A stretch of DNA of 59,043 nucleotides from a virus: positions 1 through 59,043 of IMG/VR virus record IMGVR_UViG_3300025137_000040, one strand, 5' to 3'. This document shows positions 23,413 to 42,200 of this stretch, piece by piece (the first letter of the stretch is position 1; each line of letters starts with the position of its first letter). The notes beneath the pieces were generated by a model that saw only the letters and a list, made by a program, of their open reading frames with translations, did not search any database and was not told the DNA's origin. The translations under genes and the position numbers were made by a program.

Positions 23413-23434
23413 GGGGTTTTTGAAAACAGGAGGG

Positions 23435-24003: not shown

Positions 24004-24112
24004 GTTAGTGGGTTGGTGTAAAAGTGCCGCGCTCCGTGGTTGGCCAAACTGGCGCGGCGGCAGTTTCGAAATCGGGGCTATGTTAGTCCCGGACCTTGTG
24101 AGCACTCACGGA
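24004..24112. other. Intergenic gap with GC-rich inverted repeat
   Basis: GCCGCGC and GCGCGGC flank a 20-nt loop containing TTGGCCAA. There is no T-tract on either strand, so this is a possible RNA stem or protein site rather than a clear terminator. It lies between the dNMP-kinase stop and the downstream gene's leader. Confidence 0.4.
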
Positions 24113-25063: not shown

Positions 25064-25084
25064 ATGCGGTCTAATTTTTATACG
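25045..25084. promoter_or_regulatory. Tandem CATATGCGGT motifs
   Basis: CATATGCGGT occurs twice in tandem with a 10-bp period (one helical turn) just upstream of the 25063 gene and downstream of the stop at 25085. A 10-bp period fits cooperative protein binding on one face of DNA (inference). The same 9-mer occurs at other junctions. Confidence 0.45.
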
Positions 25085-26086: not shown

Positions 26087-26150
26087 AGTTGGTAAGTTGG
26101 TAAGTTGGTAAGTTGGTAAGTTGGTAAGTTGGTAAGTTGGTAAGTTGGTT
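26087..26150 (-). repeat. Eight tandem 8-nt leader repeats
   Basis: On the plus strand AGTTGGTA is repeated seven times and closes with AGTTGGTT. On the minus strand this reads as ACCAACTT-type units ending at ATG 26086. It occupies essentially the entire intergenic leader and contains no Shine-Dalgarno. It is the longest and most regular example of the leader repeats in this array. Confidence 0.9.
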
Positions 26151-27102: not shown

Positions 27103-27163
27103 AATACATTTCTGTTAGGGTTAGGTTGGTTGCGGTGTCATATGACCGCATATGTTAAGGGCA
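27103..27163. promoter_or_regulatory. Gap with paired CATATG motifs
   Basis: CATATGACCGCATATG at about 27140-27155 is an imperfect palindrome made of two CATATG cores, and the rest of the gap is a weak AACCAACCTAACC leader. It is one of several junctions carrying the CATATGCGG-type motif. Confidence 0.4.
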
Positions 27164-27430
27164 CTATTTTTTGGTCTGAGTATTAAGCTCCTCTCGATTA
27201 GCTTCCTCGGAGTGCTCGAGTGCTTTGAACAAAACACTCCAGCGTATCTCCCCATCGGAAGTAGAGTAGATGTCTGCTTCCTCTGCGTACTTTAGTGCAT
27301 GAATGTATGAACTGTTGTTCGGGAAGGCTTTTAAAGCACCTCTCCGAATGATGTCCTCCAATTCCTTTGCATCGTATTTCGCATCAATAGTGATGCTGAT
27401 ATCCATTTTAATTCTGACTTCTTGTTCCAT
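27164..27430 (-). CDS. Small unknown protein
   Basis: 88 residues, acidic, no family recognised (ISITIDAKYDAKELEDIIRRGALKAF start). ATG 27430 directly follows CTAACCAACTAACCA. The stop is followed by the CATATG-containing gap. Confidence 0.55.
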   Translation of the reverse strand: MEQEVRIKMDISITIDAKYDAKELEDIIRRGALKAFPNNSSYIHALKYAEEADIYSTSDGEIRWSVLFKALEHSEEANREELNTQTKK

Positions 27431-27441
27431 TGGTTAGTTGG

Positions 27442-27696
27442 TTAGTTGTATTTTTTCTCTATCTCTGTCTTCCAGTCTGATGCTGCTCTCCACCAGGCCC
27501 GAGCGTGCATGGGTGGGTTCTCTACTGTTCCCTCCTTTATCCCGTCTAGGTAATCCTCGAGCGGAATGGAGGAGACTTCCTCCGCTACTTGGTAGATGGC
27601 TTCGATCGCGAATAGCTGCCCGACGGCCCCTGCTTTGCTGAACTCGCAGACCCGGGTCAGGAATTCGACATTGGTTTCTCTTTCTTTGGTTATCAT
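27442..27696 (-). CDS. Small unknown protein
   Basis: 84 residues, helical with conserved-looking Trp residues near the C-terminus (ARAWWRAASDWKTEIEKKY). No family is recognised. The leader AACCAACACACCAACAT precedes ATG 27696 with no Shine-Dalgarno. Confidence 0.55.
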   Translation of the reverse strand: MITKERETNVEFLTRVCEFSKAGAVGQLFAIEAIYQVAEEVSSIPLEDYLDGIKEGTVENPPMHARAWWRAASDWKTEIEKKYN

Positions 27697-27711
27697 ATGT
27701 TGGTGTGTTGG

Positions 27712-28104
27712 TTATGAGTAAGAGTTTAAATCTTCCCAGTGCTCACGGATTCCTAGTATCACGGAGACGATTCGCTCTCGCTCTACTAAATCCATAGGTG
27801 TGATATGGACTTTGGTTAGGATCTCCTCGTATCGAATCCATTCAGTCCGATCAATGTTTGGATCACCGGATGCCTTACGCCGCTTAGTTGTTTGCTTTGT
27901 GGTAACGACGCACGAGCTATTTACATCTGCGCGTTCCGCCAGATCCTTCAGTCGAAACGTACTTGGTTCGCGACGAAGGCCCACCCATCGAAGAGCTATG
28001 CTGCCCCCGTCCTCCGGGGTAAGCGTAGCTTCCAGTGCGCGGCCCTTGTCGTTTGTAATCTCAGGCACTCTGCGAGTGACAGGCTTATCTAGATTGGTTG
28101 CCAT
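27712..28104 (-). CDS. Unknown 130-residue protein
   Basis: Mixed charge, with a beta-rich first half and a basic central stretch (TTKQTTKRRKASGD); no family recognised. Its leader carries AACCAACACACC and ACCAACAAACAAACCAAC before ACTACTACT and ATG 28104. Confidence 0.55.
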   Translation of the reverse strand: MATNLDKPVTRRVPEITNDKGRALEATLTPEDGGSIALRWVGLRREPSTFRLKDLAERADVNSSCVVTTKQTTKRRKASGDPNIDRTEWIRYEEILTKVHITPMDLVERERIVSVILGIREHWEDLNSYS

Positions 28105-28144
28105 AGTAGTAGTTGGTTTGTTTGTTGGTTCATTGGTGTGTTGG

Positions 28145-28360
28145 TTAGGGTCTGTAATTGCGGTGACTAAAACGCCCAGAGGGAGAGTGATGGGTCACCT
28201 GTTTGTAGTCGCACCCAGAGCGTGGGTGATCGTCAGGAATCAGGACTAGCTCCCCGTCCACAACGGCGGCTCGTTCCTCGTTGGTCAGTCCGGAAACCCA
28301 GCGGTAAGGCATCGAGCCTCGACCGTGGATTCGACCTGTTTTGCTTATGATATTTGCCAT
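28145..28360 (-). CDS. Small basic unknown protein
   Basis: 71 residues rich in Arg, His and Gly, no family recognised. It is one of the few genes here without the A/C-rich leader; the 21 nt upstream are AT-rich (GTATTTTTAATC before ATG). Confidence 0.5.
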   Translation of the reverse strand: MANIISKTGRIHGRGSMPYRWVSGLTNEERAAVVDGELVLIPDDHPRSGCDYKQVTHHSPSGRFSHRNYRP

Positions 28361-28381
28361 GATTAAAAATACAGTTCGGGG

Positions 28382-28618
28382 TTATCCTATTAAACTGTCG
28401 CGACCGCCGTCAGAGAAAGTAACCCAGTGGCGCTCTTCGGGGCGGTAAGTATAGTCATCTTTTTCTTCGATACCAAAACCAGTTAGGTCTTTGTTCACCA
28501 CGCAATTCCTTAGGTATTCAAGTATTTTATCAAAGGCTTCATCCTCTGTTTCTGCTTGGAACCAATCGTGGAATGTAACAGTGAAAGTTTTTTCTTCGAT
28601 ATTAGGTTTCTTCTTCAT
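28382..28618 (-). CDS. Small acidic unknown protein
   Basis: 78 residues; TFTVTFHDWFQAETEDEAFDKILEYL resembles the beta-alpha start of small phage proteins of unknown role. Leader CTAACCAACACACCA precedes ATG 28618, and this leader lies within the end of the upstream gene (overlap 17 nt). Confidence 0.55.
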   Translation of the reverse strand: MKKKPNIEEKTFTVTFHDWFQAETEDEAFDKILEYLRNCVVNKDLTGFGIEEKDDYTYRPEERHWVTFSDGGRDSLIG

Positions 28619-28814
28619 TGGTGTGTTGGTTAGTGTTTAAGAGTTCCTCTTGCTCCAAGATTTTTAGAGTCTTCTTGATCTCAGCAGTCACCTGCGAGAC
28701 AGACCCGAAAAACTTGAATGAGGTGGACGGGAGGTTAACTTCCCAAGGGTGATCTTGCCCTTCCTTTGTTGCTTCCCCGATACCATCGGGTGTTTCTATC
28801 GTAAACGACTGCAT
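28602..28814 (-). CDS. Small unknown protein
   Basis: 70 residues, no family recognised. The final codons NTNQHTNEEET contain the A/C-rich leader of the next gene, so coding sequence and leader overlap. Its own ATG 28814 follows AACCAACTAACCAACAAACC. Confidence 0.55.
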   Translation of the reverse strand: MQSFTIETPDGIGEATKEGQDHPWEVNLPSTSFKFFGSVSQVTAEIKKTLKILEQEELLNTNQHTNEEET

Positions 28815-28860
28815 GGTTTGTTGGTTAGTTGGTTAGGACTCAGGACCCGTGGCTAAGGGT

Positions 28861-29112
28861 TCAGGAGAAACAGTTAGCCTTGAGTGCTGCGAAGAACTCG
28901 TCGAGGTCATCGAAATGTCGAGTCTCACTACGGAACAGTGAACCTACGGTGACGTAGTATCTTCCGAGGTTGTCCCGTCGAGCCTCTACACTCACCCCCT
29001 TTCCTCTATGGAAGGAGAACAAGATAGGTAGTCCCTCTATTTCCTCAGGCTGATCGTCCCAACTCTTTGGTTGTGGTTTTGATTTCTTTGGTGTGTTGGT
29101 TTGTTTGTTCAT
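28861..29112 (-). CDS. Small unknown protein with leader-like first codons
   Basis: 83 residues; the body (GLPILFSFHRGKGVSVEARRDNLGRYYVTVGSLF) looks beta-rich. The leader has ACCAACAA units then ACACCA before ATG 29112, and the first codons (NKQTNTP) repeat the same A/C-rich sequence, so the repeat array crosses the start codon. Confidence 0.55.
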   Translation of the reverse strand: MNKQTNTPKKSKPQPKSWDDQPEEIEGLPILFSFHRGKGVSVEARRDNLGRYYVTVGSLFRSETRHFDDLDEFFAALKANCFS

Positions 29113-29139
29113 TGGTGTGTTGGTTTGTTGGTTTGTTGG

Positions 29140-29478
29140 TTATTTAATCGTGATTGTCTTCCCGACGATGGAGAGCCTTTCAGCTCTGTGGATAGGAACT
29201 TCGGTATCCTTTAGAACAAAGGACGAGAACTTATATGGGTCGTAGGTGACAGCTGCACCTGCGGTGAGGGGTGTCTCGACAAGATCTCCTATGATGTATG
29301 CATGGACATTCTTCCGACCCTCTCGCAAGACCCTTTGCCTACCAGCTTCGCTGACTTTAAAGGCGACGTTATCGAGGTGGGCTTCAGGCATATACTTCCA
29401 AACACGCCACCCCTTAGGGCTTTGGGTTTGGACGGAGAGACATTGACGGTGGAGGTTGTAATATACCCGCACTTTCAT
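29140..29478 (-). CDS. Unknown 112-residue protein
   Basis: Beta-rich start (MKVRVYYNLHRQCLSVQTQSPKG) and no family recognised. ATG 29478 is chosen because the in-frame extension upstream would translate the A/C-rich leader and half of the hairpin repeat at 29507-29541. Confidence 0.55.
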   Translation of the reverse strand: MKVRVYYNLHRQCLSVQTQSPKGWRVWKYMPEAHLDNVAFKVSEAGRQRVLREGRKNVHAYIIGDLVETPLTAGAAVTYDPYKFSSFVLKDTEVPIHRAERLSIVGKTITIK

Positions 29479-29493
29479 TTCGATTTGTTTGGT

Positions 29494-29552
29494 TAGTTGG
29501 TTAGTCGATTCACCCATACGCAATCCGCATATGGGTGAATCAAATTTTGTTT
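29494..29552 (-). repeat. Hairpin repeat, copy 1
   Basis: A perfect 12-bp inverted repeat: 29507-29518 (GATTCACCCATA) with 29530-29541 (TATGGGTGAATC), loop 11 nt containing CCGCATA, flanked by AAATTTTGTTT. It has a second copy at 30187-30243 that differs by one base in each arm, both changes preserving pairing. It lies after one gene's stop and before the next gene's leader on the minus strand. The weak T-run on the plus side could also make it a plus-strand terminator, but no plus gene is present. Confidence 0.85.
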
Positions 29553-29557
29553 AGTGC

Positions 29558-29953
29558 TTAGATAGCACCACTCAGAGTAGAGATAACCTCCGCTACCTTC
29601 TTGTTCGGGAAGCTCTTCTTTTCACTGTCGAGGTAGATGTTCTCTAGATCGTGAGTGTCTTTTACCATCTCCCAGAGTGCGCGGACCACTTCGACTATCT
29701 CATCTGTATCGATAGGGCGAATCGCCATGAAGTCGTAGGTCTCGCCTCGGAATGAGTAGCAGTCTCCGTCTCCGTATCTGACTTCTTCCCAGATGTAGTC
29801 ACCATGCTCATCGGAATCTGACGCGATCTCCATGTAGTTCATCGAGGCATCTTCACTCCAGAAGATCTCGAACCAGTGGATGTTTATATGAAGGCCGTCG
29901 CCTGGCTTCTGTTCTTCGTTTCGGAACTCTATTGTTATTAGTTTTGGGTACAT
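29558..29953 (-). CDS. Acidic unknown protein
   Basis: 131 residues, strongly acidic with many Trp, Tyr and Phe (INIHWFEIFWSEDASMNYME). No family is recognised; acidity suggests a possible DNA mimic or inhibitor (speculative). The leader contains CTAACCAACAACTAG, and the gene ends 17 nt before hairpin repeat copy 1. Confidence 0.55.
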   Translation of the reverse strand: MYPKLITIEFRNEEQKPGDGLHINIHWFEIFWSEDASMNYMEIASDSDEHGDYIWEEVRYGDGDCYSFRGETYDFMAIRPIDTDEIVEVVRALWEMVKDTHDLENIYLDSEKKSFPNKKVAEVISTLSGAI

Positions 29954-29962
29954 AATTTATTT

Positions 29963-30178
29963 CTAGTTGTTGGTTAGGGTTTGTGCCTCGGCAATAGCGG
30001 CTTTCACTTCTTCAAGAAATTGATCATCAGTATCTCGGAAGTAAGGCTTTCCGTTGAAGAGCCACGCGACAACGGTTCCGGTTTCGTTTTCGTCGTTGGT
30101 CTGCCACCCATCAAGGTGGACCACTCCGTTCTCGTCTATGTACTCATATCGGATTTCTTTGTATTTAGGTTTCTTCAT
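29963..30178 (-). CDS. Small unknown protein
   Basis: 71 residues (MKKPKYKEIRYEYIDENGVVHLDGW start), no family recognised. ATG 30178 is chosen for the same reason as the 29478 gene: the upstream extension runs through leader and hairpin repeat copy 2. Confidence 0.55.
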   Translation of the reverse strand: MKKPKYKEIRYEYIDENGVVHLDGWQTNDENETGTVVAWLFNGKPYFRDTDDQFLEEVKAAIAEAQTLTNN

Positions 30179-30186
30179 GGTTGTTG

Positions 30187-30243
30187 TTCGGTTAGTCGAT
30201 CCACCCATACGCAATCCGCATATGGGTGGATCAAATTTTGTTT
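30187..30243 (-). repeat. Hairpin repeat, copy 2 (compensatory change)
   Basis: 30198-30209 (GATCCACCCATA) pairs perfectly with 30221-30232 (TATGGGTGGATC) around the same 11-nt loop as copy 1. The T-A pair of copy 1 is a C-G pair here, a compensatory double change. Flanks (AAATTTTGTTT and GGTTAGTCGA) are also shared. Both copies precede small genes of the array. Confidence 0.85.
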
Positions 30244-30249
30244 GGACTG

Positions 30250-30594
30250 CTAGTCCAAGAACTCTGTTGGGTTTACTTCCTGGATGTCAGAAGAACGCGG
30301 CTTGATCTCATGGTCAGGCATAGGTTCCTTGGACATAATCAGGTTTGTGATGCGGGGCATAAGCCAACCCGCTATGGGAGCGAGGAAGGGGGGAGCCGCG
30401 TCGAGTTGTTTATACAGCTTGAGTAGGGCTACCCTAACAGGGCTTACCTCCATGCAGACAAAGTCTGTGACGTGGCATCCCACAAAGAACTCTCCAGAGG
30501 AGATGGCCTCCAGAATTTCTTCATGGCTTTTGTATACAGGTAGTGTGCGGTAGTTGTTTCGACCGCGTTGGTAGGTGATGTAGTATTGGTTCAT
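30250..30594 (-). CDS. Unknown 114-residue protein
   Basis: No family recognised; MNQYYITYQRGRNNYRTLPVYKS start and a central IAGWLMPRITNLIMS stretch. ATG 30594 follows three ACCAACAC-type units. The in-frame upstream ATG 30621 would translate these as HQHTNTP, so it is rejected. Start overlaps the TGA of the upstream gene. Confidence 0.58.
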   Translation of the reverse strand: MNQYYITYQRGRNNYRTLPVYKSHEEILEAISSGEFFVGCHVTDFVCMEVSPVRVALLKLYKQLDAAPPFLAPIAGWLMPRITNLIMSKEPMPDHEIKPRSSDIQEVNPTEFLD

Positions 30595-30914
30595 TGGTGT
30601 GTTGGTGTGTTGGTGTCCCATTTATTCCTTAGGGTTGGGAAGACAAAGGCTAGCCAGTAAGGGCAGTATTCAAAATCGTAACAGCCCATTTCATCTCGAG
30701 CGTCCTGTTCCATATCGTTCCACATCTCTTCCATTGCTACCGCTAGCTCGTCGAGTATGAACAATCGACATGCCCATATACCTTTCTGCTCTTGCATTGT
30801 ATCCATGAATTCGCGGAACTCTTCTAACCCTGTTCTACCATCATGGCCCAAAGCCCATGTCTCCGTTATAATCATGGCAGATAGTGCGAGGTCTTGTTCA
30901 ATTATGTTTGTCAT
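30591..30914 (-). CDS. Unknown 107-residue protein
   Basis: Helical, acidic, with a Trp/Tyr-rich C-terminus. Its last codons (DTNTPTHQ) are the leader repeat of the next gene read in frame. Unlike its neighbours it has a recognisable Shine-Dalgarno (TAGGAG) before ATG 30914. Confidence 0.55.
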   Translation of the reverse strand: MTNIIEQDLALSAMIITETWALGHDGRTGLEEFREFMDTMQEQKGIWACRLFILDELAVAMEEMWNDMEQDARDEMGCYDFEYCPYWLAFVFPTLRNKWDTNTPTHQ

Positions 30915-31245
30915 CTCCTATTAATGTTATGGTTTGTTTAATGGCCCACGCCAGGGCTCTAGGTGATTTGGCGCAGACATGTTGTAGGTCCTCATGGACT
31001 CTCCAAACATGTGGCATCGAACTGGATATAAGACCGCGCCGATAGGCAAGAGAAGCTGTCTTGCTCCCATCCCCACAGGTCCGGTTCCAGTGGTATAGCA
31101 AGTAGTAGCAAGGTGTGGAGCAGGAATGTGGCCTGGCTGTAATAAACTGAATATCAAGATCAAACACACCAGTTCGGGGCGGCTCTTTAATGCAGCTTAA
31201 AACCAATTCAATTAGCCACTGTTTAGTTAGTCGAGGGTCTTTCAT
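30898..31245 (-). CDS. Unknown 115-residue protein downstream of the VWA gene
   Basis: ATG 31245 overlaps the VWA gene's TGA and has a GGGAGGTGG Shine-Dalgarno inside that gene. Segments HSCSTPCYYLLYHWNRTCGDGSKTASLAYRRG and LARRCP-like Cys/His residues are visible, but no family is recognised. Coupling suggests cotranslation with the AAA+/VWA module. Confidence 0.55.
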   Translation of the reverse strand: MKDPRLTKQWLIELVLSCIKEPPRTGVFDLDIQFITARPHSCSTPCYYLLYHWNRTCGDGSKTASLAYRRGLISSSMPHVWRVHEDLQHVCAKSPRALAWAIKQTITLIGDDKHN

Positions 31246-32441
31246 GCAGCCACCTCCCGCATGTCTAACACCTGTCCGAATGGGTACTCCGAACGTCCGA
31301 AGTTGACCCATAGGGTTGGGTAGTTAGAAGACTTGGGGAAGGTGCCATACCCGTCAGTGAAGTAGATGATCGCCGAGCACTGAGGGAAGTTGTTGTCCAC
31401 CCAGTCGAAGGCAGGGCGGAAGTCAGTGCCCCCTCGACCCTTTGCTTTAAGCGGAACTTCGCTACCAGAGGAGAACTCCTCAGCATTAGCAACCTCGGTG
31501 TCTACGTCGAGCACCCAGAGTCGCTTGATGTTGACATCGTCCATCGCCTGTTGAATCTCTCCAATCATCTGATTGAGGAGATCCCCACACATGGACCCCG
31601 AGGTGTCTTTGACAAACACTAGACCATCAACCGAGGGCGACAAGAAGGACTCGAGGTAGAGACCATCCTCCAGAAAGCGGCGGTCGAACTGATCCTCGGA
31701 GACTTCGCTAACTGTGAGGTCGCGGACGAATTGAGATAGGATCGCCTTCCAGTCAAGGACAGATTCAGAAGGGGAGATCTTCTCAAGCAGTCCACCAGGG
31801 AAGTCTCCCTTCAGCTTAGCCATCTGTGTTGCTTGGTGGGATATTCTCTCCCACTTATCTTCACCTTCACCAGCGACTGACTCATCACCTTCGCCTTCGC
31901 CTTCGCCTTCACCAGCAACTGACTCATCAGCTTCGAATCCGCCGGGGCCGTTGCCGTCCCCATACTGTTCTTCGAAACCCTCAGGATCAGCTTGCTTCTC
32001 CTGCATGAGTAGGTTGTAGATCCTCTCCTCACTCTCATCAGAGAACTTACCCCCTGCATCGAGCCCACCTGGTGGCAGTTCAATAATACCGTACTGCCTC
32101 TTGATGGTTAGGAGAATGTCATTAATGACATAGTCACAGGCGATGTTGGCCACTTGCATGTCCATGCCATCTCCACGAAACCGCTTCAGGTGAAGTAGGA
32201 ATGGGTGGAACATCTCATGGAGTAACAGCCCGAGCTTTTGCGGCATGCTTAGCTTGACCCAGTAATTAGGGTTTACCCACACCGTGTAAGCGTCGGTGCA
32301 GGCCGTGTCCCCGCGCTCTGTGGACAGCTCATACTTGAGGCTGTCGAGGGCTCCGAGGAACACATTGAGTCCACTGTGTAGAGCAACAATGTTGAGAGCC
32401 TGGCTGATGTCGTTAAAGAATTTATCTTCCGAATAACTCAT
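31242..32441 (-). CDS. VWA-domain protein with HExxH motif (DUF2201/CoxE-like)
   Basis: 399 residues. LLLHEMFHPFLLH (His75-Glu76-x-x-His79) is a zinc-protease-like motif. An acidic Gly/Glu linker (about 165-200) carries imperfect repeats. The C-terminal half has a VWA domain with the MIDAS start FVKDTSGSMCGD and later GRGGTDFRPAFDWV and IIYFTDGYG. Paired with the AAA+ gene at 32457, it matches MoxR/VWA chaperone systems that remodel or activate protein targets. The protease activity and the substrate are not known. Leader AACCAACACATCAACAT precedes ATG 32441. Confidence 0.75.
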   Translation of the reverse strand: MSYSEDKFFNDISQALNIVALHSGLNVFLGALDSLKYELSTERGDTACTDAYTVWVNPNYWVKLSMPQKLGLLLHEMFHPFLLHLKRFRGDGMDMQVANIACDYVINDILLTIKRQYGIIELPPGGLDAGGKFSDESEERIYNLLMQEKQADPEGFEEQYGDGNGPGGFEADESVAGEGEGEGEGDESVAGEGEDKWERISHQATQMAKLKGDFPGGLLEKISPSESVLDWKAILSQFVRDLTVSEVSEDQFDRRFLEDGLYLESFLSPSVDGLVFVKDTSGSMCGDLLNQMIGEIQQAMDDVNIKRLWVLDVDTEVANAEEFSSGSEVPLKAKGRGGTDFRPAFDWVDNNFPQCSAIIYFTDGYGTFPKSSNYPTLWVNFGRSEYPFGQVLDMREVAA

Positions 32442-32456
32442 ATGTTGATGTGTTGG

Positions 32457-33542
32457 TTAGTTGATTGAGGCAGTAGCCGAAGCAAGTACTGAAGCTGCAA
32501 GCCTTTGAAAGTACTTGTTATTCAACAGGCTTGGGCTCTGGACAGCGATTGTCTTGGCGACGAAGGCGGCGTAGTGGGAATTGAATCCACTGTCCCCAAG
32601 CCTTTCAGTGACCCGGATAACTGACTCGAGATTCTCATCGTCGGCGCGGCCAGCTAGCTTACAGGAGATGATCATCTTGAGTGTGCGATCCTCAGGGATA
32701 TCGCACCCATCTGGATCCGCCAGGAGGTTGTCGATTGACCCCACGCTGTTATAGATCTTGATGAATTCATCGAGCGCTGCCGCAGCCTTGGCTCCGATGC
32801 AACCCTGGATAGCGGCTGAGGCTACTCGACCGAGGCTAAGGTCCCCAGCAGAACTCTTCTGCATCTGGTAGTTGATGACGTTGCCAGCCTCTTGCAAAGA
32901 ACGGAACGTCGGCACATTACTCTGTCCATCGAACTTATCGGGGTCGAAATCATAGGCGACGTGGTTCGACTCAAGGAATGCCAGAAGCATGGGGTAACTA
33001 CCCGACTCCTCCAGCATACGCTTGTATCCTGCCATATCGGGGAGGACATAATACCAACAGAAGCGGTTGGCTTGAGCTATACCAAAGCGTTCAGCATGCG
33101 ACCGTGTCCCTGCGCCATTACCCGCTGCCACAATAAAGGTCTGTTCTGGTAGCTTTTTATTGCCCACAGACCTGTCATGGGTGATCTGCATTTTGATCTT
33201 CTGCATCGCTGGTGGACACTGTAGGGCTTCATCGAGGTGCACCAAATGCTGCCCGTCGGTGAGGTGACAGGGAAGCTCTTCGGTTACTGCGTAACACGCT
33301 TTGCCCTCCTCCTTGTCGAAGTAGGGAAGCCGAATGTCACTCGGGAGCTGGTTCGCCAAGCGGCAGTCCCAATATTGTAGGCTGTGGTCATCAGCATACT
33401 TTTTGATCAGGAACGATTTGCCTAGCCCTGCATCCCCCTCGAGAAGTGGTACGATGGTTGACACTCCACTGAATTGTTGCTCGTGGTGCATCTCCAGAAC
33501 TTCTGGAATATCGTTTGGTGTAATGGTTTGTTTATCTCTCAT
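32457..33542 (-). CDS. MoxR/CobS-like AAA+ ATPase
   Basis: 361 residues. Walker A is GDAGLGKS (residues 36-43) and Walker B is HLVHLDEA. A sensor-type FIVAAGNG follows, with an Arg-bearing ANRFCWYYV region. MoxR-family ATPases act as hexamers with VWA partners; the VWA gene follows 15 nt downstream. The first codons (RDKQTITPN) are again A/C-rich, and the leader is AACAAACCAACTAACCA. Confidence 0.78.
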   Translation of the reverse strand: MRDKQTITPNDIPEVLEMHHEQQFSGVSTIVPLLEGDAGLGKSFLIKKYADDHSLQYWDCRLANQLPSDIRLPYFDKEEGKACYAVTEELPCHLTDGQHLVHLDEALQCPPAMQKIKMQITHDRSVGNKKLPEQTFIVAAGNGAGTRSHAERFGIAQANRFCWYYVLPDMAGYKRMLEESGSYPMLLAFLESNHVAYDFDPDKFDGQSNVPTFRSLQEAGNVINYQMQKSSAGDLSLGRVASAAIQGCIGAKAAAALDEFIKIYNSVGSIDNLLADPDGCDIPEDRTLKMIISCKLAGRADDENLESVIRVTERLGDSGFNSHYAAFVAKTIAVQSPSLLNNKYFQRLAASVLASATASIN

Positions 33543-33583
33543 TGGTTAGTTGGTTTGTTGTTAACACGGGATTGTCCCGCCCT

Positions 33584-33619
33584 GCCAGCATATGTGGTAG
33601 GGGAACCGCATATGCTGGC
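33584..33619. repeat. Intergenic hairpin built on CATATG
   Basis: 33584-33597 (GCCAGCATATGTGG) pairs with 33606-33619 (CCGCATATGCTGGC) with one G-T mismatch around an 8-nt loop. Just upstream CGGGA-TTG-TCCCG forms a second small hairpin. It lies between the DUF3150-like gene and the AAA+ gene; there is no T-tract, so it is a processing or regulatory structure rather than a standard terminator. Confidence 0.6.
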
Positions 33620-33627
33620 GCGGCGAA

Positions 33628-34512
33628 TCAAAGCGCCATGGTTGACAAGATCGAGTTGGCAGTCAGTGCCGCCTCCTTCCTGGCCTCGGGGGATTCCTTG
33701 AGGACTTCAACGTCCCAGGCTGAAACCCTCTCAGCTTCGGCACACAGCTCGAGAAGCTCTTCATCTGGGGCGACCATCATCTTGGGTATCAAGCCCACCA
33801 CTTCGCCGATGTTATCGACGATCGAGCTATACATCTTCTTACCCACTGGCCCCTCCTCGTAGGACTTCATCTTCGAGGTGAAGTTCTTCAGCACCTTTCC
33901 GAGACGCTTTCTAAGCTGGCCCTGAGCTTCGACGGTGGCCCCTTCGATGTACTCACGGGCTGACTCCTGCATGGTTGACTTGAACTGGTCATTGAGGTGT
34001 TTCAAGTTCTGGACGTTGGCTGGATCAGGGAATGGATACTGGTGGTAGTCAACTCGGATCCGGTGAGCTACCTTCTCCTTGGTATCCAACCAGCGGTTCT
34101 TGGGAACAACCAGCGACCCAGTGCTGATACTCCGGAACCTGTCCTGTGAACAGGGGAGGATTTCTCCCTCATACCTGTTAACGAAGTCTTGCTTGAAGGC
34201 GGACCACTCGCTGGAGATCTTCTGCCACTCTTCTTGGAACTTAAACATGACGGCTGTGGGTAGCACTGTGTGTGGCCCGATCCGGATGACCAGGCAGCGT
34301 GGGCTGTCTTGGTCAAAGATCTTTCTTGCCTCACTCTCCGCTTTGCGGAGGGGCTCGGTGTATTCCTTGGGGATCAGATCATAGACACCTTTGGTGACTC
34401 GGCTGTCGATACCTTGGGCTTGGCCAATGATCTTACCCACCTCTTTCGCTTGCATGGTTGGTGCGTAGCGGTGGAAGGACACGTTCAGTGCGATTGCATT
34501 TTCATTAATCAT
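33628..34512 (-). CDS. DUF3150-like protein of the AAA+/VWA module
   Basis: 294 residues. The AIALNVSFHRYAP start, the KNRWLDTKEKVAHRIRV segment and the helical second half resemble, from memory, DUF3150 proteins, which in phages commonly sit beside MoxR and VWA genes. Its place directly upstream of the AAA+ gene supports this. Function unknown; it may be the module's adaptor or substrate (inference). Confidence 0.62.
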   Translation of the reverse strand: MINENAIALNVSFHRYAPTMQAKEVGKIIGQAQGIDSRVTKGVYDLIPKEYTEPLRKAESEARKIFDQDSPRCLVIRIGPHTVLPTAVMFKFQEEWQKISSEWSAFKQDFVNRYEGEILPCSQDRFRSISTGSLVVPKNRWLDTKEKVAHRIRVDYHQYPFPDPANVQNLKHLNDQFKSTMQESAREYIEGATVEAQGQLRKRLGKVLKNFTSKMKSYEEGPVGKKMYSSIVDNIGEVVGLIPKMMVAPDEELLELCAEAERVSAWDVEVLKESPEARKEAALTANSILSTMAL

Positions 34513-34575
34513 GGTTGGTATTTCTAGTGGTTGGTTTGTTGGTTCATTGGTGTGTTGCCATTTGCCGCTGTTGGC

Positions 34576-34845
34576 TCAGTCATAGTTTTTGTCAGAGAGT
34601 TGATTTACCTCGGCTGCTAGCCCTCTGGAGTAGCTCTCCATTTCCTTTATCCGCGCCTCGAGTAGCACGCTCTTGTTGTGCTGCTGCACCAGCTGACTCT
34701 CTAGCTCAAGCTGAGCTATGCCATTGAGCCGATCGGCTAGCTTGTAGGCGGTGCTGGCGGTGACTTGAGCGCTCAACTTAGCAACAGGAGAACCGTCGCG
34801 CATAAGCAGAGCGTGGGTGTCTAGGTCGTAGATGTAGTCTTCCAT
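34576..34845 (-). CDS. Small coiled-coil protein
   Basis: 89 residues with a helical, heptad-like region (residues 30-85: LNGIAQLELESQLVQQHNKSVLLEARIKEMES). No family recognised. The leader lacks the A/C repeat and instead has ATACGCGGATATAT. Confidence 0.55.
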   Translation of the reverse strand: MEDYIYDLDTHALLMRDGSPVAKLSAQVTASTAYKLADRLNGIAQLELESQLVQQHNKSVLLEARIKEMESYSRGLAAEVNQLSDKNYD

Positions 34846-34863
34846 AATATATCCGCGTATGAT

Positions 34864-35136
34864 TTACTTAATAGAATTGAGGTAGCGTTGGGTTCCCTCA
34901 AGGTGGTAAACCTCGAGCTGTTGGCGAAGCCTTTTGTGCTCGCGGGTTCCCGGGCAATGCTTTCTCCACTCGCTGCTTATACGGTTGTAGCTCTTCACAA
35001 ACTCACCCGGGGGGAGGTTGCTTACGTGCTGTTCAGCCGCAGCAGATACACGTCTGGGTCGGCTGGTCTTGATGAATGTAATTGCGCCGACAAGCAGGGA
35101 CGCACCTCCTAGTATAATGATAACAATATCAGTCAT
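34864..35136 (-). CDS. Small N-anchored membrane protein
   Basis: 90 residues; an N-terminal hydrophobic anchor (IVIIILGGASLLVGAITFI) is followed by a basic soluble tail. It might modify the host envelope or be a superinfection factor, but nothing in the sequence proves this. The leader has several ACCAACxx units. Confidence 0.6.
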   Translation of the reverse strand: MTDIVIIILGGASLLVGAITFIKTSRPRRVSAAAEQHVSNLPPGEFVKSYNRISSEWRKHCPGTREHKRLRQQLEVYHLEGTQRYLNSIK

Positions 35137-35214
35137 GGTATTTTGTGGGTTGGGTTGTTGGTGTGTTGGTCTGTTGGTGTTCAGTAGATTAGTAATATGC
35201 CACCCGCATATGAT

Positions 35215-35421
35215 CTAAGCTGGATCCTCCTGAAGGAATGCGATGTGGGTTGGAGTGTAGTCGGTTGATTCTATAACGCCACATATAGAGGCGGTGTAGG
35301 TTAGAGGGTCGTCTAGAAGAGATTTGTATTCCTCTTGAGCTTCCTCAAATGTTTCGAAACAGCGCCAATCTGATTCTGAATCAGATCGATCTTGATCTTT
35401 TGTATAAATTACAATGAACAT
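35215..35421 (-). CDS. Small acidic unknown protein
   Basis: 68 residues (MFIVIYTKDQDRSDSESDWRCF start, EEAQEEYKSLL helix). No family recognised. It starts inside the end of the preceding gene (41-nt overlap) and ends just after a CCCGCATATGATC motif. Confidence 0.52.
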   Translation of the reverse strand: MFIVIYTKDQDRSDSESDWRCFETFEEAQEEYKSLLDDPLTYTASICGVIESTDYTPTHIAFLQEDPA

Positions 35422-35677
35422 TGGATTGATTAGAGTTCAGTTCAACAGCTAGCTCGTCGGCCAACTGATCTATTTTTTTAAGACACTCCACGTAATCGTT
35501 TGGCGTTGAAACGGACGGAGCTAAAGCCTCGGCAGCCAGAGATATGGTGGCGATGGCAACCTCTTTAGCTTTCTCTTCAGGGTTACCAATGCGACCTGCT
35601 TTGGCTAGTTCCCGGAGAGTTAGTCCGGTCCAGTTCTTTTGTTCGAGGAGGTCCTCGACGATTGGTACTTCAGTCAT
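35381..35677 (-). CDS. Small unknown protein
   Basis: 98 residues, helical (IATISLAAEALAPSVSTPNDYVECLKKIDQLADELAVEL). ATG 35677 follows AACCCAACAAACCAACAACCCA; upstream in-frame ATG 35704 would translate that leader (TQQTNNP). The C-terminal 13 residues overlap the next gene. Confidence 0.55.
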   Translation of the reverse strand: MTEVPIVEDLLEQKNWTGLTLRELAKAGRIGNPEEKAKEVAIATISLAAEALAPSVSTPNDYVECLKKIDQLADELAVELNSNQSNVHCNLYKRSRSI

Positions 35678-35704
35678 TGGGTTGTTGGTTTGTTGGGTTA
35701 GCAA

Positions 35705-36058
35705 TTAAGATTCTATCCGAAGACGCTGTTCTTCGTATTCCTCTTGAGCCTGCTCCTCAAGCTCCAGCTCGTTGAGGGCGTAGTCTTCACATATGTCCCA
35801 CCCTTGTGAGACTGCGTGGGTGGATCTCCACGCCAGACCTGTCACCCCGTTGGGACGGCGGATCTGAGTGAGGGTTGCAACAACCCCCAGTTCGGGGTGG
35901 GTTACCTCCCCGCAGCGGGAGTCTACTCCCTGCCACTGGGTGGTCTTCTTAAACTCTCCCCAGTGGGAGACACATAGGTCTTGGCACCCATCAAAGATGG
36001 ACCCCACTACTTTAAGGTAGGTGGAAGCGTTTCTGTCTTCTATGAACTCTGTTCTCAT
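35705..36058 (-). CDS. Unknown 117-residue protein
   Basis: Acidic C-terminus (LNELELEEQAQEEYEEQRL) and no recognised family. ATG 36058 follows three ACCAACAA units. It is divergent from the small-terminase-like gene at 36118, with a 59-nt shared upstream region. Confidence 0.55.
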   Translation of the reverse strand: MRTEFIEDRNASTYLKVVGSIFDGCQDLCVSHWGEFKKTTQWQGVDSRCGEVTHPELGVVATLTQIRRPNGVTGLAWRSTHAVSQGWDICEDYALNELELEEQAQEEYEEQRLRIES

Positions 36059-36117
36059 ATTTGGTTTGTTGGTTTGTTGGTTTGTTGATATGCGGTCATA
36101 TCCGGTTATCATATGGT
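36059..36117. promoter_or_regulatory. Divergent intergenic region with leader repeats and CATATG motifs
   Basis: From the minus-strand gene's side come three 8-nt TTTGTTGG/ACCAACAA units, then ATATGCGGTCATATCCGG and TTATCATATGG next to the plus-strand ATG. This is the only place where an accessory plus gene faces the array. The CATATG motifs are candidates for a shared regulator site (inference). Confidence 0.45.
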
Positions 36118-36627
36118 ATGTCAAACCATAAATGGGATCATCTCCCGTGGGATACAATTCGCGAGGCTTATGTTTGTGGAGTGTCAGCTGGACAGCTCCA
36201 AGAAAAGTATGGCGTTCCTGAGGGAACTATCAGGGGGAGAGCACACCGACAGAATTGGCCTAGCCCTCACCGAGTACGTAAGGTGATGAAGGCTGCTCAC
36301 AAGATCATTGATGAGGATCCTGATAGGGGAGAGGACCTTATGGAGGCCCTTGGGTCCCAAGTAAATGGGGTCGATCCGAACGGCTCAATGCGCGAAATTG
36401 TGTCATCACTGGAGGCCAAGCAGAGGAAACATCAGGATCTGATGGTTAATATGCTCCAGAAATCCTTGGATAAAGCGAAGATCAAGCCTCCGAAAGACTA
36501 TCGGGAACTAGACATAGCTGACAAAATAATGCGGAGGAACCTGGATCTCGATAAGAAGGACGATAAACCGAGCGTCCAGATAGGGATTATCGGTGGCAAG
36601 GTGGAGGAGATAGGTGGCTCCGAATAG
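36118..36627 (+). CDS. Putative terminase small subunit
   Basis: 169 residues. The N-terminal WDTIREAYVCGVSAGQLQEKYGVPEGTIRGRAHRQNW is a helix-turn-helix of the type used by small terminases to bind packaging sites. The middle is helical and the C-terminus has PPKDYRELDIADKIMRRNLDLDKKD, similar to the oligomerisation and tail part of TerS. It is unusual in being 13 kb from the large subunit and within opposite-strand genes. ATG 36118 is chosen because the upstream extension is the divergent gene's leader. Another HTH regulator is the alternative. Confidence 0.62.
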   Translation: MSNHKWDHLPWDTIREAYVCGVSAGQLQEKYGVPEGTIRGRAHRQNWPSPHRVRKVMKAAHKIIDEDPDRGEDLMEALGSQVNGVDPNGSMREIVSSLEAKQRKHQDLMVNMLQKSLDKAKIKPPKDYRELDIADKIMRRNLDLDKKDDKPSVQIGIIGGKVEEIGGSE

Positions 36628-36673
36628 GGTCCGAATCGTCACACCGTGTGACAAATCCCAGTTAGGTATCCTC

Positions 36674-36718
36674 TAGACCCCCGAAGATACTGGGGTGCAA
36701 TACGGGTCTAAGACCCGT
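36674..36718 (+). promoter_or_regulatory. Attenuator-like overlapping stems after the TerS-like gene
   Basis: TAGACCC (36674-36680) can pair with GGGTCTA (36704-36710), or that segment can pair with AGACCCGT (36711-36718). The two hairpins exclude each other. No U-run follows, so a simple terminator is unlikely. Could be part of the larger structured region. Confidence 0.4.
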
Positions 36719-36986
36719 GAGTTAGCCAAGACCAGTCACTCCTGATCTTAGTGGCGCGTCTCCCTTTGTCAGGGAGCTTGCATATGTGGGAGTCTCTGGC
36801 GTAGACCTTGATGGGTCCTCCTTCGCACCTGTGTTGTGCTGAGAGGCTTTTACGCCTAGCCTGCCATTGGAGGGCAGATAGGCGTTGTGACGCCTGAGAG
36901 AGTCTCTCAGAGTCTAAGACGGGCTTACCGTCTAGGTTATAGGCGAAGAGATCCGCGAAGATCTCCGCTTCGGTTTGGCTGTTCAT
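36708..36986 (-). CDS. Doubtful small protein in structured region
   Basis: 92 codons, basic (RRATKIRSDWSWL), no family recognised. It has neither the A/C-rich leader nor a Shine-Dalgarno, and it lies across several of the perfect hairpins. It may be a chance open frame within a structured RNA. Confidence 0.3.
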   Translation of the reverse strand: MNSQTEAEIFADLFAYNLDGKPVLDSERLSQASQRLSALQWQARRKSLSAQHRCEGGPIKVYARDSHICKLPDKGRRATKIRSDWSWLTHGS

Positions 36987-37465
36987 TCAAGACTGCGCAT
37001 GGATCAGCTCAGCATGGGAATGGATCGCATGAGGGAAGAACATAACCCATGCGCAGGGTAGGAATGAATAGATGGTTGTGAGTTTTACAGTCTAGGCTTG
37101 CCTTGCCTTTTGCGCTTGCTATACGCTCAATTGATTTTATAAGCGGGAACCATACCCGCCCGTGTTGAGGACTCACGAGACAACCTCGCACGTTCCACGG
37201 AAAACTTTGGCAATGTGAAAAGATCAATTCTAATTGCCTCGCACGTTCACGGGGATGAGCCGCTTCTGTGGTCTCAGGCGGGGCTCCGTGTCTTTCCACG
37301 GAGTGATCCCTGTCAGGCCTCTCAGCTGGCAACGTGGGGTAAGCACGCGCTAAGGTGAGAAACTAGGTAGTCGCTAGGATGGGGTGCCAGTCGGGGATAA
37401 GCCAACAGGCGCACCCTAGCCACCATTGCGCGCACGGGGGATTGGACCACGTGCGCGCTAGGTGA

Positions 37466-37804
37466 CTAGGCTGCAGCTGGCACCTCGGCCTTAGCGGCCT
37501 TCTTAGCGGCCTTCTTAGCGGCCGTGGCTAACTCGATCTCGAGAGCTAGACTCTGGGTGTAGGAGTCGCGCCATGCCTTGGCGAACACCCTATACTCCGC
37601 GCGGGTTTCCTCGGAGATGTCCCCCGCTTTCCGTAGCTCAATGCCCTCGCGGGTGTCGGTGTAGTTGCCTTGGCGGTTAACTCGATCCTTCGAGATGTGG
37701 ACATCTAATAGGAACCTACGGTCCTTGTCCTGAGCTTTCAAGCGGCCACGTTCGGCGCGGGTTTCATTGAGACGCTGGGTGAGATATGCTGTGATTTCTT
37801 TCAT
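37466..37804 (-). CDS. Ala/Lys-tailed unknown protein
   Basis: 112 residues. The body is charged and helical; the last ~22 residues are AAKKAAKKAAKAEVPAAA, encoded by 12-nt repeats and resembling histone-H1-like tails that bind DNA or RNA. The leader (AACTAACAACCAAAAACAAA) is A/C-rich but less regular. A DNA-binding role is suggested only by composition. Confidence 0.6.
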   Translation of the reverse strand: MKEITAYLTQRLNETRAERGRLKAQDKDRRFLLDVHISKDRVNRQGNYTDTREGIELRKAGDISEETRAEYRVFAKAWRDSYTQSLALEIELATAAKKAAKKAAKAEVPAAA

Positions 37805-38264
37805 TTTGTTTTTGGTTGTTAGTTAATAAGGCCTTTGGTGGCCATAAGGGTAGACAGCGCAGCATTCCGCCCCCATACCACCACGGGAGGGGGTGGCCCC
37901 CCCTCCGACCGGCCGCCCCCTTATTATCACTCCTTATAAAAATCCCTGGCCCAAATCTATTCTATACGTATTAAACTAGGGCTAACCACCGTATAAGAGG
38001 ATTACTGTCCCACTGAAGTGGATTTACTTTTTGGAAAACCCACTCCCTTAACTCGTTGCTGCACAACGCTTTGGGGCTACCAAGTGTATATTATTATTAT
38101 ATTATTAAAAAGAGAAAGTTAACCCTAGAGAGAAGGTGCAATTCGGCCCAGGCCCAGGAGGTGAAAACGCAACACGGCCTAGGGAACGAGAGTTGCGAGG
38201 GGTCTGTTTTTACCTACTAAGCCACTTCAACGCCCTAACACGCTCGTTATCAACGATTTATACA
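37805..38264. other. AT-rich non-coding region, possible replication origin
   Basis: 460 nt without a supported gene between the primase-helicase terminator and the 37466 gene. It has a GGAGGGGG/CCCCCTCC stem at about 37885-37908, an AT-rich stretch around 38085-38115 (TATTATTATTATATTATTAA), a CCACT-GA-AGTGG palindrome, and TTATACACA (38258-38266), which fits the DnaA-box consensus TTATNCACA. A single box is weak evidence. Confidence 0.4.
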
Positions 38265-38295
38265 CAAAAAAAGGGAGTGGGTTAATCCACTCCCT
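38265..38295 (-). terminator. Rho-independent terminator of the replication operon
   Basis: On the minus strand AGGGAGTGG, loop ATTAAC, CCACTCCCT is followed directly by seven or more T. It is a textbook terminator 37 nt after the primase-helicase stop, ending the long minus-strand operon. Confidence 0.9.
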
Positions 38296-38331
38296 CCTCT
38301 ATGGTTTATCAGTCGAGCTTGGTAACTATGG

Positions 38332-40455
38332 TTATTGTGTGCCAAAGTCTATCTCATATATAGACTTCCCGTCTCGAACCCGCTTGTGGATGGACGGGCT
38401 CTTGCTGGCGAGTTTGGATAGGGTCCTCCCAAACCCCCGAGGGTTGAGTCCTGAAACCAGACCTCGAAGTTCATCGTGTAGACTGAGGTCGGCTAGCAGA
38501 GAGCTAGTTGTGCCCTCCCATGCTTTACTACCGTTCGCTGCCCACCAGTGCTCAAGGAGTTCCAAGTCTCTCATCTCGGGTGTGAGGTCCTCAGCTTCAA
38601 TCATCAATTCCTTGTGGTGGTAGGGGTGAACCCCATATCGGGGGCTGGCCCCTTTTGTTACCTCCTCAGGTGGCCGGTAGTCCAGCAGCCAAGCCAAGAA
38701 CCAAGGTAGCTCCTCTTCGATCACCTTGCCAATCTCGTCGAGGTTCTTCAGTTTTCTGAACCAGGGGAGGTAGTCCTCCTTGAGCTTCAGAATCATCAGT
38801 TTGTCTAGGATGGTGCCATCCAGGTTTGGTAGAACCGCGAGAGAGTCGGCGTCGGTGTTGGTGGTTATCACAACCCGGCCCCTGCGCTCAACCATGACTG
38901 GATTCATATACATGACTCGGTAGGGGATAGCGGGGGTGGCTGTCACTTTCTTGAGCATCTCGGAGAACCTTTTGTGGGTGCGGAAGTCCGCCGCGCTCAC
39001 GTTGTCATCGATCTGCCACACGGCGCTCTCCAGAAGCTCCCCATTGAAGGACTCGCCCCCCATGAGATAGTCTCCCGCGTCTGCCCCTCCACCAAATATC
39101 TTCGGCAGAATAAAGCAACTGAAGAGACTCTTTCCCTGATCCGCCCCTCCTGCCAAAATCAGGCTTTGACCTGGCTTGAGGTTGCCAGACCTGGCGCCCT
39201 CGTAGAAGTGTTTCAGCCAACCGAAGAAATAGCTCGTCCCGCCGTCTAACCACGTAGACCACCAATCCAGCAAGTTCTTACATTTTGCTTCATCGACATG
39301 GTCAGCTGGTTCCATTGCTCTTTTGTGCTTTACCGTGTTGACATATTCCTGGCCTCGGTAGACCGCGACTTCATCAAAATTGAAAAGAAAAGGAGCCGCA
39401 CCTTTGACTCGACGGTGACTCTGGATAAAGCACAGTAGTTCATCAATTTCGCTGGCTGGGTCTCCTTTCTTTCTCGCGTTGTGGCTGAACCCCGCCAACC
39501 GCATGTGCATTGAGAGGTCTTCCTTTTGAAGTGTTGCCCAGTTGTCTGTGCCATCCTTTACCCAGTATCGTTTACCATCGAAGTAGGTGTCCTCCACCGC
39601 ATCCTGTATTCGTTTCTCTTTGAACTCTTTTACGAACTTGGCTCCAAGGATTTCTTCCCAGCCCACAAAGGACTTACCGGCTCTGGTCGAGTGACACCAC
39701 ATGCCACCTTCCTGAACTACTGCTCCGATTCGGTCTATACCATCATCTATCCAGAATAGTGGCCCTCTGGCCCCAAGATCAAAGGTTCCCTTCCAACGGT
39801 TGGGGAATCTTTTCTCCACCTCCTCAGCTAGGGTATCCATAGGTATTCGAACACCACCCTTCGGCCCCGCAGCTTTAGTAGCGGCCTCGAAGAAGACGGT
39901 CTCGGTTTTAATCTTAGGAACAGTCTGCCCGGATACTTTCATCCAGCTGGTTCCCAACTCCCAGTATTGATTCAGGTTATAGGAACAGTCATCGAAGCCT
40001 GGTAGCAGCTTAATAGCTTTAGTTTCCGCAAAGATCAGCTTCACCAGCTTTTTAGCGAGTTCGGCGTTGTCCACCATGAGTGGCTCCTCGAATTCCCATA
40101 TGGCTCTGGCTTTGCCACTGAATGTTTTTGACACCCATGTTGGGGCCCACCCACCTGGGGCCTTCTTTTTAATAAGCTCTACCAAGTCACTACCATAGGT
40201 CGTGGGTAGGTCTCCATCGTAGTCAGCTGCTACTCCGTACAGTCGGAAGGGCTCGTTGGTTCCACCAACCCTTTTGCCAGGGGTCGTACCCTCCACAAGT
40301 GTGTAGAAGAAGTGTTTGGTATCTTCGTCAGCACACCATTCTCGGAACCCTTGTTTGTCTGCAAAGGTTGGGGGTTTGGCTGTTATCAGTGAGGGATGAC
40401 CGTTGAGTTTTTTAGCTGTTGATGTTTTGAGATTTTGAAGTGTGAAATAAGTCAT
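38332..40455 (-). CDS. Primase-helicase (AEP-like N-terminus, SF3/D5-type helicase)
   Basis: 707 residues. The N-terminal domain has VAADYDGDLP, a DxD-type catalytic motif resembling archaeo-eukaryotic primase proteins. The C-terminal ATPase has Walker A GGADQGKS, Walker B AVWQIDDN and VVITTNTDADS, fitting SF3/D5 helicases of phage replication proteins. ATG 40455 overlaps the polymerase's TGA (ATGA); an upstream in-frame start would lie within the polymerase gene. It probably primes and unwinds at the fork with PolA. The exact primase family is uncertain. Confidence 0.78.
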   Translation of the reverse strand: MTYFTLQNLKTSTAKKLNGHPSLITAKPPTFADKQGFREWCADEDTKHFFYTLVEGTTPGKRVGGTNEPFRLYGVAADYDGDLPTTYGSDLVELIKKKAPGGWAPTWVSKTFSGKARAIWEFEEPLMVDNAELAKKLVKLIFAETKAIKLLPGFDDCSYNLNQYWELGTSWMKVSGQTVPKIKTETVFFEAATKAAGPKGGVRIPMDTLAEEVEKRFPNRWKGTFDLGARGPLFWIDDGIDRIGAVVQEGGMWCHSTRAGKSFVGWEEILGAKFVKEFKEKRIQDAVEDTYFDGKRYWVKDGTDNWATLQKEDLSMHMRLAGFSHNARKKGDPASEIDELLCFIQSHRRVKGAAPFLFNFDEVAVYRGQEYVNTVKHKRAMEPADHVDEAKCKNLLDWWSTWLDGGTSYFFGWLKHFYEGARSGNLKPGQSLILAGGADQGKSLFSCFILPKIFGGGADAGDYLMGGESFNGELLESAVWQIDDNVSAADFRTHKRFSEMLKKVTATPAIPYRVMYMNPVMVERRGRVVITTNTDADSLAVLPNLDGTILDKLMILKLKEDYLPWFRKLKNLDEIGKVIEEELPWFLAWLLDYRPPEEVTKGASPRYGVHPYHHKELMIEAEDLTPEMRDLELLEHWWAANGSKAWEGTTSSLLADLSLHDELRGLVSGLNPRGFGRTLSKLASKSPSIHKRVRDGKSIYEIDFGTQ

Positions 40456-42200
40456 TTGGTGTAGTGCGGAGATTTGATTACTTCTGTTCCGAGTGGGAGC
40501 GATCGGATCCACTCAGGAGGGGAGGTCATAATTTTGTGTATGACCTTTGCCAATTCCTCGGCTTTGCTTTCCTCTACTTCGAAGACCACCTCATCGTGGA
40601 CCCTCAGTATCGGTTTTAAGTCTGCCTTCAGCAGTTCGAGGACACGGTCCATGAACACATCTCGGGCAAGAGCCTGAGTTGCATTCTCGACAAGTATCCC
40701 GTGCCAGACTTTGTGGCGTATCATCCGACCCCCTCGGGGCATCATTGCGCTGGTTCCATTCTTAGTGGAGACATCGCGGTAAGGGATGGACCTTCCTGAA
40801 GGGAGTGCCAGGCGGAACTCTTTGTCTGGTTCTCTGGAGGACTCCATAAAGCCTCGCTTCAGTTTTCCCCACAGCGCAACAACCTTAGGGTTGCGGTGCC
40901 GGTAGAGTTGAGTGAGCCGCTTCGCCTCATGCAGAGGGAGTCCTGCTACGGAGGCAAATCGCTCTGCACCCATCGCAAACTGACAGCCTAGGCTTAGCGC
41001 TTTGAGAGTGTCCCTTAGGTTGGGATCATTCTCTTTCAAGGGCCCTTCTTGACTGTAGAGGCCCATCGCCCTCCCAACAGCTTCATACCAGTCCACGCCC
41101 TCTTCAGCTAGTTTCAGGAGATCCCGATCACCAGCTAGCCAGGCTATTACTCTGGCTTCGATCTGACTCAGATCAGCGATGAGGAGGGTGTTGCCGGGTC
41201 TAGCCTCGATGAGGCTCCTCATATCAACACCATACAGCTGGCCTTTCGACATGTTCTGTACGTTGAAGCCCGAGTCCCCCGAGTCTCTGCCGGTGAGGTT
41301 GGCCCCAAAGTATTTCATTCCGAAGGGGAGGGTGCCATCTTTTCTGACCCGCCTCTGCATGGACTGCAACTTCTTGATCATCGCGTTGGCCCCCCTGAGA
41401 GTCCAGGTAAGCTCTAACACTTTGCCTTCTTCCGGATTTTCCTCGACCCAGTCGATCGTATCCGGATCGTCTTTGGCCATAGTGTCAGGTGGCAGCTTGT
41501 CGCGAGACCTAACCCAGTTTGCCCACTCGATAGGACTTAACGCCGCTCGGTCATCATCATGCCAAGGTATGCCATCCCTGGCCTGGGCGATAACATTGTG
41601 AAGGTGGGTAATTGAATCATCGAGCTTTTGACTGTTGATCGGCATGCCAGCCCAGCACATGCGCGTGGTTTCTCGGGAAAGTTCCCGTTCCCACTCTGGC
41701 CATGTTGGGGAAAGCTCCTTCCACAGAAGATAGCAATACTGCGAATCATCGAGCGCATACTGAGCAACCTCCTTTTGGAAGTCCTCGCTCATGGTTTCCC
41801 AATTGAGACCCTTCATGTTGTCCCGAGTGCCTTTGGATATATCAACCGAAAACACCTCTTTACAGGACTCCTTGAGAGAGCGGGGGAAGCCGTGGTAGGC
41901 AGCGCAGTCTGCAGAGCAGTGCCAATCTGCTGGACCTATACCTGGCTTTACCCAGTCGTGGCTCAACAAATTCCAGAGCCCCTCATCGAAGGACCGGTTG
42001 TGACTGATCCACGTATGTCCGCATATGCCTTCCCACGGGGCATCCTTTGGGTGTCCCACCCAGTTGAAGTCCTCGTCTCCCCAGATTGAGACCATGTAGC
42101 AGTCGAAGTCCGGGTGGTTGACATAGTTTTCCAGACCGTTGGTTATTGAACAGTCGTTTGAGTAGTATGACTCGAAGTCGATTGCGTAAGTCTTTGTCAT
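40452..42200 (-). CDS. DNA polymerase, family A, with 3'-5' exonuclease
   Basis: 582 residues. The exonuclease domain shows AIDFES (Asp8, Glu10) and YALDDSQY near residue 150. The polymerase domain shows motif A LLIADLSQIEARVIAW (from 339), motif B RDTLKALSLGCQFAMG (Lys400) and motif C LRVHDEVVFE. The residue equivalent to E. coli Phe762 is Leu404, and Tyr766 is Phe408. It is coupled by 4-nt ATGA overlaps to both neighbours. It replicates the phage genome. Confidence 0.95.
   Translation of the reverse strand: MTKTYAIDFESYYSNDCSITNGLENYVNHPDFDCYMVSIWGDEDFNWVGHPKDAPWEGICGHTWISHNRSFDEGLWNLLSHDWVKPGIGPADWHCSADCAAYHGFPRSLKESCKEVFSVDISKGTRDNMKGLNWETMSEDFQKEVAQYALDDSQYCYLLWKELSPTWPEWERELSRETTRMCWAGMPINSQKLDDSITHLHNVIAQARDGIPWHDDDRAALSPIEWANWVRSRDKLPPDTMAKDDPDTIDWVEENPEEGKVLELTWTLRGANAMIKKLQSMQRRVRKDGTLPFGMKYFGANLTGRDSGDSGFNVQNMSKGQLYGVDMRSLIEARPGNTLLIADLSQIEARVIAWLAGDRDLLKLAEEGVDWYEAVGRAMGLYSQEGPLKENDPNLRDTLKALSLGCQFAMGAERFASVAGLPLHEAKRLTQLYRHRNPKVVALWGKLKRGFMESSREPDKEFRLALPSGRSIPYRDVSTKNGTSAMMPRGGRMIRHKVWHGILVENATQALARDVFMDRVLELLKADLKPILRVHDEVVFEVEESKAEELAKVIHKIMTSPPEWIRSLPLGTEVIKSPHYTK

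Follow-up and report, generated by a model that had tools for sequence, protein, structure and literature searches.

A candidate large structured noncoding RNA in the replication cassette of a phage genome

We argue that positions 36628-37465 of a phage genome probably encode a functional large structured noncoding RNA of about 0.84 kb. The window is the whole stretch of DNA that was analysed, 59,043 nucleotides of IMG/VR record IMGVR_UViG_3300025137_000040. It has an exact 99-bp terminal direct repeat (1-99 and 58945-59043), so it is probably a complete genome. The region carries an excess of structure with sharp limits, it belongs to a conserved cassette, and there is covariation at the same site in related phages. 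Few large structured phage RNAs have been described so far. If our reading is true, an independent lineage beside the replication module, in a poorly studied phylum, offers a second handle on the role of such RNAs. It would also mean that these RNAs diverge past sequence recognition while their locus persists, so covariance libraries would miss many of them.

Excess structure and predicted fold

The original prediction called this region hairpin-dense, with at least nine perfect stems, and the count bears that out. There are 13 non-overlapping hairpins of at least 6 bp when a hairpin is defined as a perfect stem with a loop of 3-40. Dinucleotide shuffles have 4.65±1.7 and never more than 9. 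Stretches of the same genome have 5.5 on average and at most 12, so none of the 139 reaches 13. For stems of at least 7 bp the count is 6 against 1.4±1.1 in shuffles. Folding the whole region gives z-scores of -8.77 and -7.81 for the minus strand and -5.40 and -4.15 for the plus strand, each pair from separate shuffle sets. Eighteen control folds, from 9 stretches of the genome on both strands, lie between +2.0 and -4.2. In a scan of the whole genome the region tops the minus strand, with a mean local z of -2.93 against a genome mean of -0.36. A later local scan that was coarser and used fewer shuffles gave a smaller contrast, so we base the structure claim on the hairpin counts and on folding of the region as a whole. 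At both flanking genes the structure breaks off sharply, with z of -0.55 (the ORF at 37466-37804) and -1.2 (TerS, antisense).

The predicted fold and its surroundings are laid out in Table 1. The core shut by the long-range helix (36838-37326) has a fold z of -6.28. The nested hairpin and the GC-rich stem picked out in the original prediction are both real, the latter with a pair probability of 1.0. The hairpins at the 3' end run to 36636 in the predicted fold.

Table 1. Features of the candidate RNA and of its neighbourhood in the window
Feature	Position	Strand	Basis or remark
TerS-like gene, convergent neighbour	36109..36627	+	phrog_1206, E 2.5e-5
Candidate large noncoding structured RNA, ~0.84 kb	36628..37465	-	21 helices, each 5 bp or longer, pair probability >0.6; fold z; edges
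92-aa open frame inside the candidate RNA, probably not a gene	36708..36986	-	codon log-odds 0.076; no family; segment z -4.42; start codon in helix
10-bp long-range helix, 3' strand	36838..36847	-	fold prediction
Nested hairpin, 7 + 6 bp	36852..36885	-	pair probability 0.97-0.99
Long central arm, 7 + 14 + 4 + 4 bp	36982..37068	-	pair probability 0.95-0.99
10-bp long-range helix GCUGAGAGGC, 5' strand; encloses 469-nt core	37317..37326	-	pair probability 1.0
Arm of 9 bp + 5 bp	37420-37373	-	confident predicted helices
GC-rich 9-bp hairpin right behind the small-ORF stop codon	37428..37458	-	folding; read from sequence
Small ORF, 112 aa, cassette member	37466..37804	-	codon log-odds 0.264
Origin-like noncoding region with inverted repeats CCACTCCC	37805..38331		sequence reading
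Conserved upstream element TACGTAYA-N17-21-TTTTAYA-N49-52-CGTGG	37881..37970	-	1 copy per genome in window, L013, L015, L018-L021
Primase/helicase-like replication gene, upstream of cassette	38332..40512	-	PF19263, phrog_1829

A conserved cassette and covariation in related phages

BLASTN and nhmmer searches with the window RNA found no match in phage records, in the compared loci or in the full records of the relatives, so relatives were sought through the helicase. Twelve IMG/VR contigs (L013-L024) have helicases that are 49-55% identical to that of the window over the best segment, and they are syntenic with it. In the relatives that are long enough the order is helicase, small genes, origin-like DNA, small ORF, GC-rich hairpin and then 0.8-1.3 kb of structured noncoding DNA. 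This last stretch has a fold z on the helicase strand of -8.22 in L021, -6.91 in L016, -6.85 in L013 and -4.51 in L018. These four and the window have the full cassette of helicase, origin-like DNA, TACGTAYA element, small ORF, GC hairpin and structured noncoding RNA, and it is partly visible in L015, L017 and L020. The GC-rich hairpin sits at the matching position in L013, L015, L016, L018, L020 and L021. Long-range helices around cores of several hundred bases are found in the window RNA, L021 and L013.

The common single-copy upstream element makes the locus homologous between the window and the relatives. Over about 100 bases the window and L021 align here with a score of 40 against 18.9±2.5 in shuffles, and 0 of 300 shuffles match it. 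L016 has a variant with different spacing, and L017 ends inside the element. None of the other, unrelated loci compared has it, and a search for the pattern across IMG/VR returned only the clade of helicase relatives and chance-looking matches. We regard it as a putative promoter or leader. The small ORF behind it had no match in BLASTP against the ORFs of the relatives, in Pfam or in PHROG, and the relatives carry unrelated small ORFs at this site. The small ORFs of L018 (10976-11278) and L020 (9752-10021) are unrelated to each other though the RNAs behind them are clearly related. To judge from these comparisons the small ORF seems to be exchangeable cargo.

The origin-like region is likely to be a replication origin. 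In the relatives the equivalent DNA is conserved (70-83%) over about 300 bp and contains CCACC-type repeats. The origin-like stretch of L021 cannot be aligned to the others, and other genes intervene there. A replication site had been considered at the outset. What stands is that the RNA lies a few hundred bases downstream of the origin-like region in the members seen, but the link is one of position. Given the conserved adjacency to this region and to the helicase, the RNA may be tied to the timing of replication or to early expression. The alternative idea of a packaging site next to the TerS gene fares worse. TerS is 4-5 kb from the structured region in L013 and L016, so its adjacency is specific to the window genome and a packaging role is not supported by position. 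The structured region of the relatives stays with the helicase, the origin-like DNA, the upstream element and the small ORF.

Between window and relatives the RNA bodies have no detectable sequence similarity and cannot be aligned. A structure-aware comparison, which had been proposed as a check, gave a result in L013, L016, L018 and L021. Each has one two-part helix near the 3' end of the RNA, with a UCCUA/UAGGA-like outer stem, a short internal loop containing ACC, an inner stem of 9 bp and a CAACAC motif after the 5' strand. Across these four, 8 of 14 pairs are changed on both sides, 100% of the cells are paired and 0 of 500 shuffles do as well, in an alignment that was trimmed by hand to the element, which favours structure, and with shuffle controls that are somewhat generous. 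This covariation means that the syntenic regions of the relatives are RNAs under structural selection.

The comparison did not carry over to the window itself, where a descriptor search for the two-part helix found none in the RNA. The helix was either lost, replaced or altered past recognition. By eye it is tempting to see it in the 3' end of the window RNA (GGUCUAGAGGAUAC). The descriptor did not pick out this stretch, and it can pair with itself as GUAUCUUC/GAGGAUAC. Since the window RNA has neither the sequence similarity nor the helix, the covariation evidence is limited to the relatives. Its position, upstream element and folding lead us to take the window RNA as their counterpart, and we infer that their covariation applies to it.

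A search of IMG/VR with the 3' motif for further members gave the known clade and chance matches only. No long noncoding region of this kind occurs at the site in Verrucomicrobiota prophages with distant helicases, except for a structured stretch of 383 bases in L138. Two further observations belong here. The L021 RNA contains four copies of the motif GATACGTC in hairpin-like settings (16401-16630), and the motif is possibly related to TACGTATA of the upstream element. L031 has another strongly structured noncoding stretch at 15322-15878, with local z of -2.6/-3.1, which lies downstream of a helicase that is more distant.

Strand and competing explanations

The original prediction named no strand. 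The RNA is probably on the minus strand, which profits more from G-U pairing than the plus strand does. We keep the call at probable since forbidding G-U pairs makes the two strands nearly equal in structure (z of -4.1 for minus and -5.6 for plus). The DNA polymerase, helicase and small-ORF genes are on the minus strand as well. The RNA region itself has no clear promoter or terminator.

One can imagine a structured DNA element, part of an origin or a packaging site, whose hairpins would function in the DNA when it is single-stranded or supercoiled, with no need for an RNA. The near-equality of the strands without G-U pairs is what one would expect of it, and the origin-like region is only a few hundred bases off. 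However, the minus strand folds clearly better once G-U pairs are allowed. The 3' helix of the relatives retains G-U pairs that fit the helicase strand only and would be A-C mismatches on the opposite strand. The conserved DNA that bears repeats is the neighbouring region and not 36628-37465, and the proximity to TerS is not conserved. We consider a DNA element unlikely.

In a second scenario the structured stretch is the long leader, or the mRNA, of a small gene that it regulates; in the relatives the stretch ends shortly before a small gene, and in the window that gene would be the 92-aa frame (36986-36708). The scenario gains something from the start codon that L013, L016, L018 and L021 have within a few tens of bases of the last 3' hairpin. 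The codon usage of the 92-aa frame is weakly positive too, and intermediate beside the neighbouring ORF of the cassette. Against this, the frame is among the most structured parts of the region and its ATG falls within a predicted helix. It lacks the A/C-rich leader that is typical of most other minus-strand genes. It is tempting by eye to call its product a homologue of the basic proteins encoded downstream in the relatives, but the similarity is not significant. A length of 0.8-1.3 kb would also be exceptional for a regulatory leader. This scenario is still less probable than a DNA element. As a side observation, many genes on the minus strand of 23000-36200 follow A/C-rich leaders in which CCAACAAACC-like repeats occur and a Shine-Dalgarno is not obvious.

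That ordinary small genes lie in a stretch that folds well by chance is very improbable: the minus strand has a 92-aa and a 107-aa frame, but 25% and 14% of shuffles contain ORFs of such length, the longer frame has negative codon log-odds, neither has a family match in PHROG or Pfam, and the structure is far beyond the range of the genome. The frames are probably not genes, and the first reading of the region as one with no convincing gene is upheld.

Known RNA families, proposed role and host

The original prediction was of a candidate large RNA of the size of GOLLD or ROOL whose sequence it could match to neither, and the covariance models support this. With the GOLLD model (RF02032) neither the window nor L013, L016, L018 and L021 gave a match at E<=10; the control genomes matched this model only below the cut-off. 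The ROOL model (RF03087) at the same threshold matched neither the window nor the relatives, and it gave nothing in the control genomes either. Searches of all of Rfam with the window and the relatives, at gathering and at permissive thresholds, returned nothing relevant, and no family fell on the structured regions at the gathering level. The window RNA is like GOLLD in being phage-encoded, about 0.8 kb long, elaborate in secondary structure and fast-diverging in parts. Unlike GOLLD it is located in a replication cassette and has no tRNA in or near it, such tRNAs being frequent in GOLLD but not universal; no tRNA was found anywhere in the window or in L013-L018 and L021. GOLLD has a conserved 3' half, whereas here a conserved 3' element is present in four relatives and was not found in the window RNA. 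ROOL is likewise a large phage RNA of complex structure, but the window RNA has no tRNA island and is longer than the 574 positions of the model. The window RNA is like both families in how large and how densely structured it is and in being carried by a phage; we assign it to neither.

Other large or phage-borne RNAs are no closer. OLE RNA and HEARO are large structured bacterial RNAs, and the window RNA differs from them in having no Rfam match at all. The pRNA of phi29 is a phage RNA and the window region adjoins TerS, but the pRNA is far shorter at about 0.17 kb and the adjacency is not kept around the window RNA.

We propose that the RNA of about 0.84 kb would be transcribed on the minus strand together with the genes for replication and made during lytic growth. 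Its probable promoter would lie in the conserved element ahead of the small ORF. It would fold into a compact shape of several arms: a GC hairpin at the 5' end, a core shut by the 10-bp long-range helix, the central arm and the 3' hairpins. Selection would preserve this fold while the sequence drifts fast. GOLLD and ROOL structures form RNA-only nanocages whose purpose is unknown (PMC12286853). By analogy with them, we suggest tentatively that the window RNA may do its work as a folded particle or scaffold; a coding role or a function of the DNA itself is less likely. Whether it stands for a large ornate phage RNA of a new class is in our view an even bet. Such a class would be unrelated to GOLLD, ROOL and OLE and would belong to temperate Verrucomicrobiota phages, keeping its fold and promoter cassette while the sequence and the small ORF turn over almost completely.

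The assignment to that phylum comes from distant relatives of the helicase in Verrucomicrobiota genomes, including two on one large chromosome contig. Together with an integrase-like gene in the window, which is just below the Pfam cut-off, they make a temperate phage of Verrucomicrobiota the likely identity of the window. Two minor features were seen elsewhere on the minus strand of this genome. A 33-nt match (85%) to the RNA region lies at 12295-12327, inside the gene for a protein of 3602 aa. Near-identical hairpins, GATYCACCCATATGCG...CGTATGGGTGRATC, occur at 29509-29543 and 30200-30234, and the first has a start codon within it.
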